Below, piece by piece: positions 5,457 to 47,534 of a stretch of DNA of 64,000 bases (position 1 is the first letter of the stretch; each line of letters begins with the position of its first letter). Both the position numbers and the translations under genes were made by a program. The DNA lies in assembly GCA_902619925.1 (NCBI GenBank), contig CACNFY010000001.1, forward strand, positions 62,001 through 126,000. The letters are read 5' to 3'. Source of the stretch: an uncultured Pelagibacteraceae bacterium. Its GTDB lineage: Bacteria; Pseudomonadota; Alphaproteobacteria; Pelagibacterales; Pelagibacteraceae. The notes beneath the pieces were generated by a model, which did not search any database, was not told the origin of the DNA, and saw nothing but the letters and a program-made list of their open reading frames with translations.

Positions 5457-5545
5457 ATGTATTCGTATTTTTGGTATTTATAATTAAATTATTAATTAAT
5501 TAAATTAAATAAGTAAATTATTTAAAAATTTGACATATAAAAACC

Positions 5546-5551
5546 TATAAT
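5546..5551 (+). promoter_or_regulatory. Probable -10 box of the metX transcript
   Basis: A perfect TATAAT lies here, so a transcript would start near 5558, at the 5' edge of the SAM-II aptamer. A TTGACA occurs at 5530-5535, but only 10 bases separate the two hexamers, too few for a standard sigma-70 promoter. The true -35 is therefore weak or absent. Confidence 0.5.
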
Positions 5552-5561
5552 GTAAACATTA

Positions 5562-5620
5562 TTTGCGCTGATTTAACTGAATTGCGAGCGCTATAAAAAA
5601 ACCGCTAAAAAAGTTTTTTT
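5562..5620 (+). promoter_or_regulatory. SAM-II riboswitch upstream of metX
   Basis: The leader fits the SAM-II (metA-type) S-adenosylmethionine riboswitch, which represses methionine genes when SAM is abundant. Stem P1 is GCGCT (5565-5569) with AGCGC (5587-5591), enclosing the conserved GATTTAA loop and ATTGC. The conserved 3' strand GCTAAAAAAG (5604-5613) can pair back to 5577-5585 to close the classical pseudoknot: C5577-G5613, T5578-A5612, T5582/T5583 with A5608/A5607, G5584-C5605 and C5585-G5604. A run of seven T follows at 5614-5620, and metX begins at 5643. The downstream gene makes O-acetylhomoserine, a usual SAM-II target. Confidence 0.9.
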
Positions 5621-5642
5621 CCTCACAATTCACAAAAAAATT

Positions 5643-6776
5643 ATGAATAATATAGAAAGTTTAAAAAAATATATAGTTACAGACATATTAAAACTGGATT
5701 GTGGAAAGGAAATTTCAAATTTTCCAATTGCCTATGAAACATACGGTAAGTTAAATAAAAAAAAAAATAATGCTATTTTAATTTTTCATGCATTAACGGG
5801 AGACCAATTTCCCTGTGGTAAAAATCCTATTACTAATAAAGAAGGTTGGTGGAATTATGCCCTTGGCCCAAATAAAGCTATAGATACAAATAAATTTTTT
5901 GTTATAAGTGCAAATGTAATCGGTGGATGCATGGGATCCTTTGGACCTTCAAGTATTGATCCCCTTACAAATAAACCTTATGGTTCTAATTTTCCTGTTA
6001 TCACAATTAATGATATGGTTAATGCACAAAATTTCTTATTGGATTATTTTAAGATAGAAAAACTATTCGCAGTAATAGGTGGTTCAATGGGCGGCATGCA
6101 AGTATTACAGTTTATTTCTAACTTTCCAAATAAAGCTGAGGTGGCTATTCCAATTGCGTGTACAGCAAGTCATTCCGCTCAAAACATTGCATTAAATGAA
6201 CTAGGTAGACAAGCAATTATGGCGGACAATGAGTGGAGTAATGGAAAATATTTAGAAAATGGAAAATCTCCATCAAAAGGTTTGTCAGTAGCTAGAATGG
6301 CAGCTCATATTACATACCTATCTAAAAAAGGATTACAAGAAAAATTTGGAAGGAAACTTCAGGAGAGAGATACTCTAAACTTTAGTTTTGATGCTGATTT
6401 TCAAATTGAAAGCTATTTAAGGTATCAAGGTTCAGTTTTTGTCGATAGGTTCGATGCAAACAGTTATTTATATATTACAAGAGCAATGGATTACTTCGAT
6501 TTAACAAAGCAATTCAATGGTAATCTTTCAGATGCTTTTAAGCACAGCAAAACTAAATTTTTTATAATTTCATTCACATCTGATTGGCTTTACCCAACTA
6601 ATGAAAATAGAGAAATAGTTATTGCTTTAAATGCTATTGGAGCAGATGTAGGATTTATTGAAATAACTTCTGATAAAGGGCATGACTCGTTTTTATTGGA
6701 TGTTCCTGATTTTCTAAGTGCTATAAAAAATTTTCTAAATAATTCGTATAAAAATATTAATGAAACAAGAATTTAA
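5643..6776 (+). CDS. metX: Homoserine O-acetyltransferase MetX
   Basis: Transfers acetyl from acetyl-CoA to homoserine, the committed step to methionine in this group. The protein is a 377-residue alpha/beta-hydrolase-fold acyltransferase. The nucleophile is Ser148 in the elbow GGSMGGMQ, the acid is probably in TSDWLYP and the base is His347 in DKGHDSF. The oxyanion-side stretch FHALTGDQF is present near 48-56. Length agrees with the MetX family. It is preceded by the SAM-II riboswitch, so repression by SAM is expected. The last 17 bases overlap metW, the usual alphaproteobacterial metXW pair. MetX and MetA-like succinyltransferases can exchange acyl donors, so acetyl specificity is inferred from the family. 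Confidence 0.95.
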   Translation: MNNIESLKKYIVTDILKLDCGKEISNFPIAYETYGKLNKKKNNAILIFHALTGDQFPCGKNPITNKEGWWNYALGPNKAIDTNKFFVISANVIGGCMGSFGPSSIDPLTNKPYGSNFPVITINDMVNAQNFLLDYFKIEKLFAVIGGSMGGMQVLQFISNFPNKAEVAIPIACTASHSAQNIALNELGRQAIMADNEWSNGKYLENGKSPSKGLSVARMAAHITYLSKKGLQEKFGRKLQERDTLNFSFDADFQIESYLRYQGSVFVDRFDANSYLYITRAMDYFDLTKQFNGNLSDAFKHSKTKFFIISFTSDWLYPTNENREIVIALNAIGADVGFIEITSDKGHDSFLLDVPDFLSAIKNFLNNSYKNINETRI

Positions 6777-34514: not shown

Positions 34515-34898
34515 TTAAATTATAATCCTTCCTATCAAGTAAAATAATACAGTAAAAATTAATGAAAAAATTATAACTAAAGAACCTGTTAAATTTGCAG
34601 TTTTTAATTCAAAGCCGTAACCCATGTCCCAAAAAAGGTGTCTTATCTCACTGAGAGAGTGAAATGTAAAAGACCAAATTGTTGCAATTACAAAAAATTT
34701 ACCAAAAAATGAATTAAAGAAATTGAAAATAATCTCATAATTTTTCTCACCTAACAATAACGATCCAAGCCAAAAAAAAATTAAAGTTAGAATAACAATA
34801 TTAATTACTCCGGTAATTCTATGTCCAATGGAAACTAGTGATGAGATATGCCAATTATAAATCTGAATATGTGGAGATAAAGGATTTTTATTTTCCAT
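34515..34898 (-). CDS. sdhC: Succinate dehydrogenase cytochrome b556 subunit SdhC
   Basis: The larger membrane anchor of complex II, 127 residues, with three membrane helices (about 26-48, 64-84 and 104-125). It carries the family motifs PLSPHIQIYNWHISSLVSIGH with the quinone-site Ser and Arg (SIGHRITG) and HSLSEIRHLFWDMGYG with the axial heme histidine. Its first 11 bases overlap the end of asd, showing read-through from upstream genes. Length agrees with alphaproteobacterial SdhC. Confidence 0.93.
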   Translation of the reverse strand: MENKNPLSPHIQIYNWHISSLVSIGHRITGVINIVILTLIFFWLGSLLLGEKNYEIIFNFFNSFFGKFFVIATIWSFTFHSLSEIRHLFWDMGYGFELKTANLTGSLVIIFSLIFTVLFYLIGRIII

Positions 34899-35898
34899 AA
34901 AAATTATTTTCTATTAAAGTTTCAGCTATTTCAACTGCATTTAAGGCAGCACCTTTTAATAAATTATCTGATACTATCCACATATTAATAGAATTTTCCT
35001 GAGAAGAGTCTTGACGTATTCTAGATATAAAAGTCTCAAATTTATTTTCGGCTTCAACAGGCGTAATATATCCTCCATCTTTATGTTCATCAACGACTAT
35101 ACATCCAGGTGATGATGATAAAACTTTTTTAATCTCTTCGACATTAGGTTTTTTATGAAATTCTATATTTATGCTTATAGAATGCGATACCAATACAGGA
35201 ATTCTAACACATGTCGAGGTAACATTAATTTTTTTATCTAAAATTTTTTTTATCTCATCATGATTTTTTTGCTCCTCTTTAGTGCTACCATTTTCTAGAA
35301 AGCTATCGATGTGTGGAATTGCATTAAATGCAATTTGTTTTGTGAAATTTTTTGATTGAACATGTTTATTTTCTAAAATTTCTTTAGTTTGTGACAAAAG
35401 CTCATCCATTCCAGCTTTTCCTGCTCCAGATACAGATTGGTAAGTCGATACGACTATTCTTTTCACATTGTACAAATCATGTAAGGGTTTTAGCGCTACA
35501 ACAATAGGTATAACTGAGCAATTAGCGTTAGCAATAATATTTTTATTTTTAAATTTTGGTAACTCTTCTGAATTAACTTCTGGCACAATTAAAGGAATAT
35601 CTGAATCTTTTCTAAAGAATTTTGAGTTATCTATCACTATTGTTTTATTTGCTGCTATTGGAGCCCATTTCTCTGCAACAGCACTTCCGGCCGCAAAAAA
35701 AGCTATCTTTACTTTTGAAAAATCAAATTTTTCCAAATCCTCGACTATATATTCTTTACCTAAAAAATTTACCTTTTTTCCTGAGCTTTTTGATGAGGCT
35801 ACTAAGAAAGCCTCCGTTACAGAAAAATTTTTTTTTTCAAGTACCTCAATTAATTTTCTTCCAACATTACCAGTTGCTCCGACTATTGCTATATTCAT
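34888..35898 (-). CDS. asd: Aspartate-semialdehyde dehydrogenase
   Basis: Reduces aspartyl phosphate to aspartate semialdehyde for Lys, Met, Thr and cell-wall diaminopimelate. The 336-residue protein has the NADPH motif IAIVGATGNVGRKL, the catalytic Cys127 in NANCSVIPI, SVSGAGKAGMDEL and STCVRIPVLVSHS with a substrate Arg. In many alphaproteobacteria asd follows leuB directly; here the four DMSP genes separate them. Its end overlaps the sdhC start by 11 bases. Confidence 0.95.
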   Translation of the reverse strand: MNIAIVGATGNVGRKLIEVLEKKNFSVTEAFLVASSKSSGKKVNFLGKEYIVEDLEKFDFSKVKIAFFAAGSAVAEKWAPIAANKTIVIDNSKFFRKDSDIPLIVPEVNSEELPKFKNKNIIANANCSVIPIVVALKPLHDLYNVKRIVVSTYQSVSGAGKAGMDELLSQTKEILENKHVQSKNFTKQIAFNAIPHIDSFLENGSTKEEQKNHDEIKKILDKKINVTSTCVRIPVLVSHSISINIEFHKKPNVEEIKKVLSSSPGCIVVDEHKDGGYITPVEAENKFETFISRIRQDSSQENSINMWIVSDNLLKGAALNAVEIAETLIENNFYGK

Positions 35899-35916
35899 GA
35901 TGATTTAAAATTTATA

Positions 35917-37029
35917 CTAAATGAAAGGTAAATCACAGAGTTTTCCTGTGCAATCTTTTCCATTTATATTAATTTTGACTTCTTGGGAGTCTTTAAAATA
36001 TGGTTTATTAATCATTGCTATTCCAATAACTTGCTTAAAAGATGGATTATATGTTCCAGATCTTAATTCACCAATCAAATTTTTTGTATTATCATACATG
36101 TTGATCGAACTATTAACTGCGATGTGATTAGCATCAATTTTTACTCCCATTAATTTTCTTTTAATTCCATCGGCCTTAACTTTTTTTAATTCATCTTTCC
36201 CTAAAAATTCAACATCGGTATCTAGATTTACATATTTGTCAAACCCACACTCTAAGGGATTATCACCAATGTCGATATCGTTACCATATGATAATAAAGA
36301 ACTTTCAATTCTTTCGATTAAATTCGGACAACCAGGTTTTAAATTAAATTCATCTCCCTCTTCAAATAATTTATCATATAATGCTAGTCCCGCCTTTTCA
36401 TGTTCCATATATACCTCGAAACCACCTTGTTTAGACCATCCAGATCTTGCAATTAAGTGTTTTGCACCACCGAATTCAAAATAATCAAAACCAAAAAATT
36501 TTAACTCTCCAATCTTTGGTCCTAATACTTTTTTCATTAAGTCAAAAGATTTCGGTCCCTGAACAGAAAAAATATCAACCTTTGCCTCAAATACATTCAC
36601 ATCATAACCTTTTCCTATGGCTAGACCTTTTGCGAACAATTCTAGATCCGAGTCCGATAAAGAAATCCACCATCTATCCTCTGCTAATTTGAGAATTACT
36701 GGGTCGCTTATTAATTTTGCATTATTGTCAATTATAGGAGCATAATAACACCTACCTACTTTAGCTTTTGAAAGATCTCTACATGTAATAAGCTGAACTA
36801 GTCTAGCTGAATCTTTTCCATTAATTTCAGTTTGTCTTTGCACTGAGACATCCCAAACTTGAACATGATTTTTTAAATGATGATATGCCTCCTCTAGTGA
36901 GTCCTCAAATTTTGTGGGTAAAAGCATGTGATTGTAAACTGTATATGCAGTAACACCTTGTTTCTCAATTCTTGAGGTGTAAGGTGTTCCTCTCAATCTC
37001 CTTGATTTTGATACAAAATAATTTTTCAT
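35917..37029 (-). CDS. dmdA: Dimethylsulfoniopropionate (DMSP) demethylase DmdA
   Basis: Moves a methyl group from DMSP to tetrahydrofolate, giving methylmercaptopropionate (MMPA). The 370-residue protein belongs to the GcvT/aminomethyltransferase fold: [33 protein letters not shown] near residues 57-76, [28 protein letters not shown] and the C-terminal barrel. It differs from GcvT at the N-terminus and in the GRCYYAPI segment. Sequence alone would leave DmdA versus another GcvT relative slightly open. The neighbours, an acyl-CoA ligase and a long acyl-CoA dehydrogenase matching DmdB and DmdC, decide it. The start overlaps the hydrolase stop (ATGA). Confidence 0.88.
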
Positions 37030-37802
37030 TTATTTATAAATTCCAAAACTGATTTTCTCATTTCAAAAGCTTTTTCAAATATAATCATATGACCACAGTT
37101 ATTTATAACTTTTACTTTAGAATTTTTTATTGTCTCAGCCATTTTATTTCCAATTTTTAGAGGAACCATTTTGTCCAAATCTCCAAATATACATAGAGTA
37201 GGACAAATAATTTTTTCTAAAGATTCTTTACCGGCTTTATAATTGTTACAAGCATTTAAGTCCACATACAAAATTTCTCTAATTTCTCTAGTGGAATTAA
37301 TTATTTTTTTTACAGGGTTGCCTCCTATAAAAGCCTTTGAACCCTCATAACCCCACTTCATCATTAATAAAATTGCTTTTTCGTCTCCAGCGTAGGCTAG
37401 GTCTAAAAGATCTTGGTTTACTGGTAATTTATATGAACCAGCAACTAAAATTAGCTTTTCTGTTAAATCTGGATAACGTGACGCAAAATCAATTCCTACA
37501 AGACAACCTTGGGAGTGACCTACAAAGTTAATTTTATTTAATTTTAAAATTTTTATCAAATTACTAACCCAATCTGATATTTTTTCGATTGTTTCGATAG
37601 CAGGGCCATCTGAATTTCCATGTCCTGGCAAATCTACGGATAAAACATTATATCCATTCGTAATATAAAATTGCTCGTGTAAAGACCAAACGATGTGACT
37701 AAGTCCACTACCATGCATTAGCAATATTGAAGATTTGCTGGGATCTATATCTCTGCCACCAGTTGAGATGAAAACATCCTTATCATTGATGTTTATATTC
37801 AG
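37026..37802 (-). CDS. Alpha/beta hydrolase of the DMSP cluster (probable CTG start)
   Basis: A 258-residue alpha/beta hydrolase of unknown substrate. It has the oxyanion-side HGSGLSH, nucleophile elbow GHSQGCLVG, acid in FGDLDKMVP and base in [10 protein letters not shown], so the triad is complete. The start is unusual. No ATG precedes the first core strand; the CTG at 37802 overlaps the dmdB TGA (CTGA) and lies 5 bases after AAGGAG, giving [16 protein letters not shown] as the first strand. A TTG at 37724 would delete that strand and its turn. The gene is locked between dmdB and dmdA by 4-base overlaps, so a role in DMSP/MMPA metabolism is likely, for example a thioesterase or hydrolase step. 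This is inference. Confidence 0.8.
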
Positions 37803-39427
37803 CTTAACTCCTTAGCCTTTTTTCTTAGTTCAAACTTTTGGATTTTTCCTGTAGATGTTTTTGGTAATTCACAAAATTCAATTTTTTTTGGTACTTTAAA
37901 ACTGGCTAAAGTTTCCTTACAAAAATCTATTAGCTCTTTTTCTGAAGTAGATTTATCTTTTACAGCCTCAATAAATGCACACGGTACTTCACCCCATTTT
38001 TCGTCTGGTTTAGCAACTACAGCTGCAATTGATACTGAAGGGTGTTTTGCTAAAGTATTTTCTATTTCGATTGAAGAAATATTTTCACCGCCAGATATAA
38101 TAATGTCTTTAGATCTGTCTTGAATTTTTATATAGCCATCAGGGTGCATTACCGCCAAATCTCCTGAATGAAACCATCCATCTTTCATGGCTTTATCAGT
38201 TGCATCTTTGTCCTTGTAATATCCTTTCATGACTACATTTCCTTTGATCATTATCTCACCCATCGTTTTTCCATCTCTTGGAACTGGTTTCATTGACTCT
38301 GGATCTATCACCGAGACCCCCTCGGTATTGGGATATCTGACACCTTGTCTAGCTTTAATCTCATTAACTTTATCTTCATCAAGTGAGTTCCAATCGTCAT
38401 TCCACGCACATTGGGTAATATGACCATATGTTTCAGTTAAGCCATATACATGCATAACTTCAAAACCTAGGCTTTTCATTTTTTTAAAAATTATACTTGG
38501 TGGAGGAGCACCTGCAGTAAGAACATATACTTTATGTTTTAACTCTTTTCTGTCACTTTCAGAGGCACCTGTAATCATATTAAGTACAATTGGAGCCCCT
38601 CCAAAGTGAGTTACTTTATAAGTTTCAATCAATTCAAAAATTTTTTTTATATCTATATTTCTTAAACAAATCGTTTTTCCATTCAACATTGGAACAGTCC
38701 AAGGATAACACCATCCATTACAATGAAACATTGGCACAACACAAAGAAATACTAATCTATTTGGCATGTTCCATGCAACAGCACTTCCTGTTGCCATTAA
38801 ATATGATCCTCTATGATGATAAACAACACCTTTTGGATTACCAGTTGTTCCTGAAGTATAACTTAATGAAATTGCCTGCCATTCATCGTCTGGTCTTTTC
38901 CATACATAGTCTATATCACCAGTTTTTAAAAATTCCTCATATTCTAAATCTCCAATTTTACCGAGCTTTGACTGATCAGCATACTTATCAAAAATATCAA
39001 TTATTTTGATCTCTTTTTTAATATTAGATAAAGCTTTTTTTACAACTTCATGAAACTGTCTATCTACAATTAATACCTTGGCATCACTATGTTCCAAAAT
39101 ATAACTTACTGTTTTAGAGTCTAATCTAATATTAATTGTATTAAGAACAGCACCTGTCATAGGCACCGAATAATGTGCTTCAAATATTTCTGGAGTATTA
39201 CATGCCATGACGGATACTGTATCTCCTTTAGTAATTCCAATTTTTTCAAGAGCGCTCGCAAATTGAGTACATCTTTTGTAAATATCAATCCAAGTATATT
39301 TTCTATCTTCATAAACTAGTGCTTCATAATTTGGATAAATGTCTTTTGCTCTCTCTAAAAATGTTAAAGGTGTCAAAGGAACAAAATTTGCAGCATTTTT
39401 GTCCAAATTTTTTTCAAAACTACTCAT
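37799..39427 (-). CDS. dmdB: Methylmercaptopropionate-CoA ligase DmdB
   Basis: An acyl-CoA synthetase (ANL superfamily) that would activate MMPA with ATP and CoA. In 542 residues the markers are the P-loop SLSYTSGTTGNPKGVVYHHRG region, the HVYGLTETYGH loop, GWFHSGDLA, the hinge region IQDRSKDIIISGGENISS and the C-terminal catalytic Lys in KTSTGKIQKF. Medium-chain or other short acyl ligases look alike. The DmdB call rests on its position between a DmdC-type dehydrogenase and dmdA, the known DMSP-demethylation order in SAR11. The gene begins one base after dmdC. Confidence 0.85.
   Translation of the reverse strand: MSSFEKNLDKNAANFVPLTPLTFLERAKDIYPNYEALVYEDRKYTWIDIYKRCTQFASALEKIGITKGDTVSVMACNTPEIFEAHYSVPMTGAVLNTINIRLDSKTVSYILEHSDAKVLIVDRQFHEVVKKALSNIKKEIKIIDIFDKYADQSKLGKIGDLEYEEFLKTGDIDYVWKRPDDEWQAISLSYTSGTTGNPKGVVYHHRGSYLMATGSAVAWNMPNRLVFLCVVPMFHCNGWCYPWTVPMLNGKTICLRNIDIKKIFELIETYKVTHFGGAPIVLNMITGASESDRKELKHKVYVLTAGAPPPSIIFKKMKSLGFEVMHVYGLTETYGHITQCAWNDDWNSLDEDKVNEIKARQGVRYPNTEGVSVIDPESMKPVPRDGKTMGEIMIKGNVVMKGYYKDKDATDKAMKDGWFHSGDLAVMHPDGYIKIQDRSKDIIISGGENISSIEIENTLAKHPSVSIAAVVAKPDEKWGEVPCAFIEAVKDKSTSEKELIDFCKETLASFKVPKKIEFCELPKTSTGKIQKFELRKKAKELS
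37808..37813 (-). promoter_or_regulatory. Ribosome binding site deciding the CTG start of the hydrolase
   Basis: The minus strand reads AAGGAG here, inside the last codons of dmdB. It sits 5 bases before the CTG at 37802-37800, which is an ideal distance. Strong Shine-Dalgarno matches are rare among neighbouring genes, so this one supports CTG as the initiator. Confidence 0.55.
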
Positions 39428-39428
39428 T

Positions 39429-41195
39429 TTAATTGAATTTAAAATCCATTATATATCTACTTCCACTCATGGCAGATATGCAATGTGTGTCAATTCTTGG
39501 TAATACCCTTTGAAAAAAAAAGCGAGCGGTTTGTATTTTATCCTCATAAAATTCTTTATTATTATCATAATCATTGAAACTTACCTCTAGAACCTTAATC
39601 CAAGAGTGACCTACTGCAATAAGACCTAACACTTTTAAATAGTCATTACATGCTGCGTTTGCATCATCCTTAGAGTTTTCAATTTTATCTTTTACCCATG
39701 TGGTAAAAGAAATTAATTTATCTAAGTATAAATTTAAGTCCTTAATAAATGGTGTAAGCTTTTCGTTATTATTTTCTAAGTCTTTTTTAATCATTTTTAT
39801 ATATCTGTCGATAATATCTCCATTTTTGTTAACTAATTTTCTAAATACCAAATCAATTGCTTGAACAGAGTTAGTGCCTTCATAAATTGGTGTAATTCTG
39901 TTGTCTCTGTATAATTGTTCTATACCTTGGTCTTTGGTATATCCATATCCGCCAAATATTTGCATTGCCTCGCTTGTAATTTCAGACCCCATATCTGTAA
40001 ACAAAGCTTTGACGACAGGTGTCATCAAAGATACATAATCTGCAGCCTCTTGCTTAACTTTCTCGACATTATGGTTCAGACTAACTTCTGTTTGCTGTGA
40101 TAACCAAAAACATAGTGCTCTCTCACCCTCTATAATTGACTTCATATTTAAAAGAGATCTTCTTATGTCTGCATGCTCAATTATAAAATCTGCAGAACCA
40201 TTAGATGAATTATTTTTGTTACTTTTACCTTGTTTCCTTTCTTTAGAATAAATTAATGAGTTTTGATAAGCGATTTCAGATATACCAAGTCCCTGAATTC
40301 CAACAACAATTCTCTCCAAGTTCATCATTGTAAACATAGAATTTAATCCCTTATTTTTTGGACCTATCATATAACCTGTAGCCTCATCAAAATTTAATAC
40401 ACATGTAGCTGACCCTTTTATACCCATTTTGCTTTCTATAGATCCAGTACTAATTCCATTTCTTGGACCTAAAGATCCATCCTCGTTAACTACAAATTTA
40501 GGTACCAGAAAAAGGCTTATACCTCTTGTTCCTGACGGAGAGTCGGATGACCTAGCAATAACTAGGTGAATAATATTTTCTGTTAAATCATGATCACCAG
40601 AAGTGATAAAAATTTTTTGGCCAGTTAGCTTATAAGTTCCATCGCTTTGTTCTACAGCTTTTGTTTTTAGTAAACCTAAATCTGTACCACAGACTGGCTC
40701 TGTTAAACACATTGTACCACTCCATTTACCCTCAACCATTTTTGGTAAATACTTATCTTTAACATCATCTGTTGCATGATGATTTATGCAATTGTATGCG
40801 CCAATACTTAACTCACTATATAATTTAAATGACAATGATGCCGAAGAAAGCATTTCATCGAAAAATGCGCTTACAGTTTTTGGCATGCCTTGACCACCAT
40901 ATTTTGGATCACAGGATAATGAGGTCCATCCATCCTCTATATATTTTTTATATGCCTCTTTATATCCTGGTGGTGTTCTCACGACACCATTTTCTAAAAC
41001 TGCCGGTTGCTCATCACCAACTTTTGCTAAAGGCAAAATGAGATTTTGATTAATTTTTGCAGCCTCCTCTAAAATATTTTTTACAAGATCTGGCGTTACG
41101 TCTTTATATTTATCTAACTCGTTATAAAATTTATTGTTTCTTAGTTTCTCATACAGAAACATCATGTCATCTAATGGTGCTGTATATGTTGTCAT
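39429..41195 (-). CDS. dmdC: Methylmercaptopropionyl-CoA dehydrogenase DmdC
   Basis: A flavin acyl-CoA dehydrogenase that would form methylthioacryloyl-CoA. At 588 residues it is the long subfamily with an extra C-terminal domain, as DmdC is; ordinary acyl-CoA dehydrogenases are near 380. Motifs are MCLTEPVCGTDLGLLKTKA for FAD/substrate, FITSGDHDLTENIIHLVIAR, FGGYGYTKDQGIEQLYRD and the catalytic Glu in ITPIYEGTNSVQA. Context (dmdB and dmdA downstream) gives the name. It opens the DMSP cassette 27 bases after leuB. Confidence 0.85.
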   Translation of the reverse strand: MTTYTAPLDDMMFLYEKLRNNKFYNELDKYKDVTPDLVKNILEEAAKINQNLILPLAKVGDEQPAVLENGVVRTPPGYKEAYKKYIEDGWTSLSCDPKYGGQGMPKTVSAFFDEMLSSASLSFKLYSELSIGAYNCINHHATDDVKDKYLPKMVEGKWSGTMCLTEPVCGTDLGLLKTKAVEQSDGTYKLTGQKIFITSGDHDLTENIIHLVIARSSDSPSGTRGISLFLVPKFVVNEDGSLGPRNGISTGSIESKMGIKGSATCVLNFDEATGYMIGPKNKGLNSMFTMMNLERIVVGIQGLGISEIAYQNSLIYSKERKQGKSNKNNSSNGSADFIIEHADIRRSLLNMKSIIEGERALCFWLSQQTEVSLNHNVEKVKQEAADYVSLMTPVVKALFTDMGSEITSEAMQIFGGYGYTKDQGIEQLYRDNRITPIYEGTNSVQAIDLVFRKLVNKNGDIIDRYIKMIKKDLENNNEKLTPFIKDLNLYLDKLISFTTWVKDKIENSKDDANAACNDYLKVLGLIAVGHSWIKVLEVSFNDYDNNKEFYEDKIQTARFFFQRVLPRIDTHCISAMSGSRYIMDFKFN

Positions 41196-41222
41196 ATATT
41201 ACCTTAAAATAATTTAAAAATG

Positions 41223-42332
41223 CTACTTTTGCAAATATGCAATAACCGCATCACCCATCACTTTTGTAGAAACTTCCTTATTACCCTTAGACAAAATGTC
41301 TTTTGTTCTTAGTCCGTCATTTAAGACTTTTTGAACCGCATTTTCTAGCTCTTTAGCTTCTTTATCTAAATTTAATGAGTATTTCAAAGCCATTGCAAAA
41401 CTTAAAATTGTTGCAATAGGATTAGCTAAACCTTTACCAGCGATATCAGGGGCTGAACCATGGACAGGTTCATACATTGATCTCATATTTCCGTCCTTGT
41501 CCTTTGCTCCTAGTGATGCTGAAGGTAGCAATCCTAATGAACCCGTTAACATAGCTGCTTCATCAGAGAGGATATCTCCAAAAAGATTATCAGTAACTAT
41601 GACATCAAATTGCTTAGGGTTTCTTAAAAGCTGCATTGCACAATTATCTGCAAGCATGTGCTCCAGTTGTACATCTTTAAAATCTTTATTATGCAATGTT
41701 TGTATTTCCTCTTTCCAGAGTTGTCCTGCTTCCATAACATTAGATTTTTCACATGAGGTAACTTTATTATTTCTTTTCTTTGCTAAATCAAAAGCAATCC
41801 TACCAACTCTTTCTATTTCTTTTGTTGTGTAGGTATGTGTGTTAATTCCTTTTCTTTCTCCGTTGTTAATTGGTTTTATGCCTCTAGGCTCACCGAAATA
41901 AATTCCTCCTGTTAACTCTCTAACAATCATGATATCTAATCCAGAAACTATTTCGGGCTTAAGACTGGATGCGTCAACAAGTTGCTTAAAGCATATCGCA
42001 GGTCTCAAATTTGCAAATAACTTTAATTCTTTTCGAAGTTTTAAAAGTGCTCTTTCTGGTTTTTTTGAAAATTCTAAATTATCCCATTTAGGACCACCCA
42101 CCGCTCCTAAAACAACTGCTTGACTTTCTAATGCTTTATAAAATACTTCATCAGTAATTGGGGTCCCGTGTTTATCATAGGCAGCTCCACCAACTAAATC
42201 TTCATCTATTTCAAAATCAAGTGATCTATTATGATTTAGCCATTCTATTATTTTTCTAACTTCTGCAATTACCTCTGGTCCGATGCCATCTCCTGGTAAT
42301 AAAAGGATTTTTCTTTTTTTTACTTTAATCAT
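41223..42332 (-). CDS. leuB: 3-isopropylmalate dehydrogenase LeuB
   Basis: Oxidatively decarboxylates 3-isopropylmalate in leucine synthesis. The 369-residue protein has [13 protein letters not shown], the substrate-binding arginines in [29 protein letters not shown], and the metal-binding [21 protein letters not shown] took the ATG at 42332 ([16 protein letters not shown]) because it starts just before the nucleotide fold; a start 48 bases upstream would overlap leuD more deeply. The chosen start overlaps the leuD end by 8 bases. Confidence 0.95.
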
Positions 42333-47437: not shown

Positions 47438-47458
47438 ATTTCACTCCAGCAGTTAAAG

Positions 47459-47534
47459 CATCAGTGGGCGAATATCGCTGACTGATGTCGATCTCTTTGT
47501 AAACAAAGACACCGCAAATAGCTGTTTTTTGCGG
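47459..47534 (-). promoter_or_regulatory. Structured leader upstream of ffh: three consecutive hairpins
   Basis: Three perfect stems lie in 76 bases. Stem A is CATCAGT/ACTGATG (47459-47465 with 47481-47487), enclosing an inner GCGA/TCGC (47468-47471 with 47475-47478). Stem B is TCTTTG/CAAAGA (47494-47499 with 47504-47509), with a four-base loop. Stem C is CCGCAAA/TTTGCGG (47512-47518 with 47528-47534). With the minus-strand promoter just beyond, a transcript towards ffh would begin near stem C and carry all three before the ffh ATG at 47437. G and C are much richer here than in flanking spacers. No known RNA family was recognised; the SRP RNA loop motif is absent. Confidence 0.6.

Follow-up and report, generated by a model that had tools for sequence, protein, structure and literature searches.

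Candidate promoters in the last codons of leuB and dmdA probably bracket a SAR11 dimethylsulfoniopropionate demethylation cassette inserted between leuB and asd

How is a catabolic gene cassette expressed when it lies in a run of housekeeping genes with almost no space between them, and how are the genes behind it kept expressed? The question is raised by a stretch of 64,000 nucleotides (hereafter, the window) from an uncultured Pelagibacteraceae bacterium (contig CACNFY010000001.1, positions 62,001 to 126,000), in which four coupled genes, namely dmdC, dmdB, an alpha/beta hydrolase gene (abh) and the dimethylsulfoniopropionate (DMSP) demethylase gene dmdA, stand between leuB and asd on the minus strand. 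SAR11 cells rank among the chief DMSP consumers and are not known to use sulfate, so the control of their demethylation genes bears on the marine sulfur cycle. Comparison of the window with its relatives led us to consider it likely that the cassette is the SAR11 DMSP demethylation cluster, inserted between leuB and asd and bracketed by two predicted sigma-70-type promoters (P1 and P2). With a shade less confidence, we favor the view that these candidate promoters, located in the last codons of leuB and dmdA and apparently under synonymous selection throughout the genus, insulate the cassette transcriptionally on both sides, and that about half of the lineages would make a leaderless dmdC message.

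An earlier note on this DNA had described the four genes as interrupting the leuB-asd pair, and the coordinates it gave were correct. Of at least 555 relatives, we compared the best 80 (without exception Pelagibacteraceae, Pelagibacterales or Pelagibacter records). Gene order and strand were kept in every one of the 68 loci that span both flanks, and in the remaining 12, in which one flank gene is missing, the order is intact as far as the locus extends; the synteny of leuB-dmdC-dmdB-(abh)-dmdA-asd is far above chance. The leuB-asd distance was surveyed across 117 genomes of the order, comprising 49 of the window's genus, 15 others of the family and 53 of the sister family. Within the genus, the gap was 4551-5337 nt in all 44 measurable genomes (in four of the others leuB and asd are on different contigs or leuB is lacking, and one has neither gene). 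Outside the genus, the gap was 12-20 nt in 12 of the 15 family genomes and 17-33 nt in 38 of the 53 sister-family genomes, the rest of which were not measurable, i.e., 12-33 nt in all 50 measurable relatives; in one more family genome (G078) the two genes are adjacent at a contig end. Because the gap is short outside the genus and of kilobase scale inside it, the leuB-asd adjacency is ancestral and the cassette is the newcomer, a genus-level insertion that is most simply explained by a single event in the ancestor of the window's genus. The possibility raised in the earlier note, that relatives without dmd genes also separate leuB and asd, found no example among the measured genomes. Its description of the leuB-asd neighborhood as common in alphaproteobacteria was fair but does not hold generally: among 75 genomes of the class with both genes, 32 have them at most 400 nt apart in that order and 6 more at 544-2853 nt, while they are on different contigs in 27 and distant or on opposite strands in 10.

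At the upstream border of the cassette, the putative promoter P1 consists of a -35-like hexamer, TTGCAA (41229-41234, minus strand), inside the end of leuB and a -10-like hexamer, TATTTT (41206-41211, minus strand), 17 nt downstream in the leuB-dmdC gap. When synonymous constraint was compared in 22 lineages with DmdC proteins less than 92% alike, the 14 codons at the very end of leuB ranked first among 302 codon windows, while constraint at five control ends (leuD, leuC, dmdC, dmdB and asd) was ordinary. The leuB end has TTG as its leucine codon in 22/22 lineages, against a 13% share of TTG among the leucine codons of leuB, and the glutamine codon that follows is CAA in all 21 lineages that have a glutamine. 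TTGCAA is present in 21/22 lineages, 20 of which have TAnnnT exactly 17 nt further downstream; at the level of loci, TTGCAA-N17-TAnnnT precedes dmdC in 80/82. The spacing of P1 holds despite a leuB stop codon that may lie 9, 12 or 15 nt from the first base of TTGCAA and a gap of anywhere between 26 and 34 nt. A looser pattern, TTGNNA-N16..18-TANNNT, occurred within 70 nt upstream of dmdC in 87/88 loci, as compared to none upstream of leuD (0/85), leuB (0/81), dmdB (0/93), abh (0/45) or dmdA (0/99) and 4/79 upstream of leuC. In relatives without the cassette at this place, the leuB end carries TTGCAA in 1/18, in a different frame, and among 25,293 placements within coding alignments covering seven genes, the best frame of this kind reached 12/22 lineages. 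The distance from the end of the -10-like hexamer to the dmdC ATG is 6 nt in 12/21 lineages and 10-16 nt in the remaining nine, the window among them, predicting a dmdC mRNA that is leaderless or nearly so. A further motif, ATTATTYTAAG, which is conserved in the 26-nt gaps, was dropped as a stand-alone signal (15 matches in the window; 17.7 expected).

The downstream border shows a similar arrangement. The putative promoter P2 comprises a -35-like CTGTGA (35933-35938, minus strand; TTGYGA in most relatives) inside the end of dmdA and a -10-like TATAAA (35911-35916, minus strand) directly after the dmdA stop codon. Here too, the last 14 codons of the gene ranked first for synonymous constraint, among 231 codon windows in the same lineages, and the conserved block, TTTGYGATTTACC...CATTTAG followed by TATAA, extends through the stop codon. 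TTGYGA-N16-TATAA precedes asd in 90/99 loci; a pattern that also allows TATAAN was present before asd in 88/95 cassette loci versus 0/14 relatives without the cassette there.

In both elements, when seen across the relatives, -35-like and -10-like hexamers stand 16-18 nt apart at a conserved place, as in sigma-70-type promoters; the window's own sequence fits the pattern of P1. Elsewhere in the genome of the window, the pattern TTGNNN-N16..18-TANNNT is enriched before divergent genes (27/98; shuffled mean 11.1, standard deviation 3.5) and not enriched at tight junctions (18/256; shuffled mean 19.1, standard deviation 3.9). A TTG core with a weak -10 can function in alphaproteobacteria, as described for Sinorhizobium meliloti in PMC3616915.

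Several observations weigh against reading P1 and P2 as promoters. With a threshold of at least 9/12 matches to TTGACA/TATAAT, the Escherichia coli consensus scan found no minus-strand site at either the leuB-dmdC or the dmdA-asd junction of the window, and the region as a whole has fewer such sites than shuffled sequence (52 versus 63.1, standard deviation 6.7). A near-consensus TATAA pattern occurs before divergent genes in 1/98 cases, compared to 1.3 in shuffles. A two-block model trained blindly by expectation-maximization on 86 divergent upstream regions converged on TTTTCA/AATAAA with scattered spacers and no clear -35/-10 pair; its likelihood was 64.9, as compared to 18-27 in six shuffles, and it was left out of the scoring of P1 and P2. 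As for P1, one of the 22 lineages has no TTGCAA and another is offset by one base, TAnnnT also occurs at a spacing of 12 in 17/21 lineages so that the -10 is not unique, and the TATTTT of the window is weak. An alanine GCG codon upstream of TTGCAA (about 41249-41251, minus strand) is kept in 82% of the 22 lineages even though GCG makes up 8% of leuB alanine codons, a conservation for which a promoter gives no explanation. As for P2, the strict TTGNNA-N16..18-TANNNT pattern finds asd in 11/95 loci, and TATAAN had to be allowed; the window itself, with CTGTGA in place of a TTG hexamer, is among the 3/22 lineages that miss the P2 pattern. Both patterns were written after the alignment was inspected, and their counts are not independent events, because the lineages are related. 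No SAR11 transcript start-site map was found among the matches listed in our literature search.

According to the explanation we favor, the cassette would have entered the leuB-asd interval once, in the genus ancestor, P1 would give rise to a dmdC-dmdB-(abh)-dmdA transcript whose leader is very short or absent, and P2 would start transcription anew for the genes downstream of the insertion, asd and sdh. The cassette would be partly uncoupled from the leucine operon despite the gapless housekeeping run, and read-through from the leu genes need not be zero. Its enzymes would convert DMSP to methylmercaptopropionate (MMPA), MMPA-CoA and then methylthioacryloyl-CoA (MTA-CoA), following the route given in PMC5069961. 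Constant basal expression is plausible: in strain HTCC1062 under sulfur limitation, the protein abundance of DmdA, DmdB and DmdC was constant across the samples reported in PMC5069961, which fits a weak constant promoter. Those proteomics contrasted 100 nM with 1 μM DMSP and therefore, as DMSP was present in both treatments, do not address DMSP induction.

The earlier note had suggested that the cassette may be expressed constitutively rather than from a promoter of its own. Taken to its end, this would mean that the four genes are transcribed by read-through alone from the ribosomal-protein and leu run, hence constantly, which we regard as unlikely. The gaps of no more than 27 nt along the whole run, the junction without an E. 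coli-like promoter and the constant Dmd proteins of HTCC1062 (PMC5069961) are in line with such read-through, but this reading leaves aside that the ends of leuB and dmdA are the most constrained windows of their genes and carry spaced -35/-10-like motifs that are absent at the tested junctions inside the run. In addition, trmD, which lies upstream in the same run, was down to 0.15 at the protein level in control stationary phase (Table 1 of PMC5069961), while the Dmd proteins remained constant. The constancy proposed in the note is thus compatible with the HTCC1062 proteomics, while the conserved promoter-like element in the leuB end and gap leaves a missing promoter unsupported, so that we consider the constitutive, promoterless reading half wrong. 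Likewise, no strong promoter at 41196-41222 shows up in the E. coli consensus scan, although a conserved promoter-like element reaches from the leuB end into this gap. That all genes lie on the same strand says little about constitutive expression, the whole neighborhood being equally packed.

Other functions for the conserved blocks (an operator bound by a regulator, a signal for RNA processing or for translation, or a site of recombination left at both cassette borders) appear less probable still. The GCG codon, the sequence TTGCA-TATT-TGCAA in the window (an inverted repeat by our reading) and the occurrence of TGCG in both borders would suit such a signal. However, the consensus RNA structure at the leuB-dmdC junction is weak (-1.83 kcal/mol; no pair changed on both sides; 15/22 lineages), and the spacings of 16 and 17 nt suit a -35/-10 pair, a pattern that this genome carries more often than expected upstream of divergent genes. 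It is very improbable that the conservation merely reflects common descent, with no function, or an accident of alignment. The relatedness of the lineages and the choice of patterns after inspection speak for this reading, but no other codon window reaches this level among the 302 of leuB or the 231 of dmdA, which share the same ancestry, and stop codons and gap lengths shift while the spacing stays.

If the promoter reading of P1 and P2 is right, the dmd genes would not be mere passengers of the leucine operon, and the genus-wide question of constant versus induced expression would reduce to two short fragments. It would also mean that a minimal genome with almost no intergenic space can accommodate an insertion without cutting off the downstream genes, with codons doubling as promoter space. 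Within the locus, it is the border elements that merit testing.

The identity of the cassette genes was evaluated from their products. DmdA (35917-37029, minus strand; 370 aa) passes the NCBIfam model for DMSP demethylase (NF009133; 516 bits, cut-off 410) and consists of the Pfam domains GCV_T and GCV_T_C. Its best match among solved structures is 3tfh, which we take to be the DmdA of HTCC1062, at 560 bits versus 115 bits for the next chain; the protein therefore has the GCV_T fold and is nearer to the solved SAR11 enzyme than to GcvT. DmdC (39429-41195, minus strand; 588 aa) is an acyl-CoA dehydrogenase with an Acyl-CoA_dh_C domain and the expected size of ~590 aa; solved chains of 591-603 aa match it at 507-560 bits, and no NCBIfam model reached its cut-off. 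DmdB (37799-39427, minus strand; 542 aa) is an acyl-CoA synthetase that passes only general subfamily models (NF006020: 867 bits, cut-off 677; NF004837: 483 bits, cut-off 476) and falls short of the 3-(methylthio)propionyl-CoA ligase equivalog NF005426 (347 bits, cut-off 822). The assignments as MMPA-CoA dehydrogenase and MMPA-CoA ligase, respectively, follow from position and orthology with the HTCC1062 cluster, and the substrates of both enzymes are presumed. The abh gene (37026 to about 37802, minus strand) is an optional member, present in 34/80 outside loci; it probably starts at a CTG that overlaps the dmdB stop as CTGA (37800-37802, minus strand), the start position being TTG in 29 and CTG in 13 of 42 loci. 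The flanking genes leuB (41223-42332, minus strand), whose last codons hold P1, on the left and asd (34888-35898, minus strand) on the right each pass their own NCBIfam model.

As the earlier note had stated, these genes are part of a long same-strand housekeeping run. Eighteen genes follow one another on the minus strand (ffh, rpsP, trmD, rplS, leuC, leuD, leuB, dmdC, dmdB, abh, dmdA, asd, sdhC, sdhD, sdhA, sdhB, mmsA and mdh; the names ffh, rpsP, trmD, rplS, sdh, mmsA and mdh were assigned from translations), and every gap from ffh to mdh is at most 27 nt. Around the cassette the spacing is 27 nt (leuB-dmdC), 1 nt (dmdC-dmdB), -4 nt (dmdB-abh), -4 nt (abh-dmdA) and 18 nt (dmdA-asd). No regulator gene was seen in the dmd interval of the window, in agreement with the note, and the locus has no riboswitch match, the sole Rfam match at gathering score in the whole window being the ffh small RNA (47450-47502).

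The genome of the window (1.10 Mb in 30 contigs, about 89% completeness) has close relatives in Pelagibacteraceae. Among 36 other genomes of the genus, a DmdA of at least 60% identity is missing in 7 and partial in 1 more; true loss of dmdA is not claimed, as about 8 absences are expected by chance from the stated completeness. Several genus genomes have further DmdA-like paralogues (37-48% identity) besides GcvT-type proteins. Identity to the asd of the window divides the loci into two groups (about 63-67% versus 82-97%) and does not run parallel to that of leuB (about 82-99%), a pattern reminiscent of asd replacement through recombination in part of the lineages. An exception of a different kind to the leuB-asd arrangement is seen in two complete genomes of genus g5 (L127/G061 and L128/G064), in which sdhC directly follows leuB and no asd match was obtained at the threshold used; a 26% match to asd lies ~5 kb further on in L127.

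Both the cassette and its position are genuine, hold across the genus and were known beforehand from the arrangement in HTCC1062 (Candidatus Pelagibacter ubique). The legend of Figure 1 of PMC3160333 places dmdA, mhpC, fadD and mmgC side by side, which are the four functions of the window. With SAR11_0246 being dmdA (PMC3160333) and SAR11_0254 being trmD (PMC5069961), the window genes dmdA, abh, dmdB, dmdC, leuB, leuD, leuC, rplS and trmD fit the HTCC1062 tags 0246-0254 one for one. There is no essential difference in gene content, and the border elements are not mentioned in the available part of PMC3160333; our literature search found no paper joining dmdA with leuB in SAR11. The dmdA-acuI arrangement of Ruegeria pomeroyi shares with the window a DMSP demethylase as the first enzyme; in the window, however, dmdA is the last of four genes and is followed by asd, not acuI.

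Close DmdA proteins among the 15 other family genomes were found in G105 and G124 only, in both at another place. In G105, a sister-genus genome, the genes dmdC, dmdB, abh and dmdA follow the order of the window (57% identity for DmdA and 68% for DmdC), but they lie elsewhere and belong to a seven-gene cluster (L125 8424-17263, minus strand; G105:C3:128000-146000) in which OsmC-like and crotonase genes separate dmdB from abh and a FadB-like gene precedes dmdC. This cluster sits exactly between tRNA-Pro(TGG) and an NDUFS4 gene, which are 6-9 nt apart in 6/6 fetched genomes of the same genus that lack dmd genes. In G124 (genus g9; L126, G124:C6), a lone dmdA (5517-6623, minus strand) precedes the same NDUFS4 gene, and no match to dmdC reached the threshold used. 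The two sister-genus DmdA proteins cluster in the tree (support 100/99), and the tree is compatible with a place either outside or among the genus proteins; both one origin followed by relocation and separate transfers would fit it.

The SAR11 MTA-CoA hydratase, i.e., the methanethiol-releasing enzyme, was still unidentified in 2016 according to PMC5069961, and the enlarged cluster supplies testable candidates for it. Orthologues of its crotonase are encoded in the genome of the window (G000 C2:137426-138169; L173 7400-8173), in 14/14 genus genomes tested and in G124 (52-57% identity) and co-occur with dmdA; identity does not exceed 33% in a further 12 genomes of the family and is 32-35% in two from the sister family. 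Upon alignment to human enoyl-CoA hydratase, we read Q and G at the two catalytic glutamate positions of the crotonase, for which reason we do not favor it as the hydratase. The FadB-like protein (G000 C2:99914-102133; L200) is present in 13/14 genus genomes tested and in G105, as compared to 0/13 other family genomes and 0/2 of the sister family. G124 and G071 lack a FadB-like match at the threshold used, which speaks against this protein as the only solution. FadB is not mentioned in the main text of PMC8437039. In an alignment with 6ium, the FadB-like protein keeps both crotonase glutamates, and since the crotonase lacks them by alignment, the FadB-like protein appears to be the better candidate for MTA-CoA hydration.

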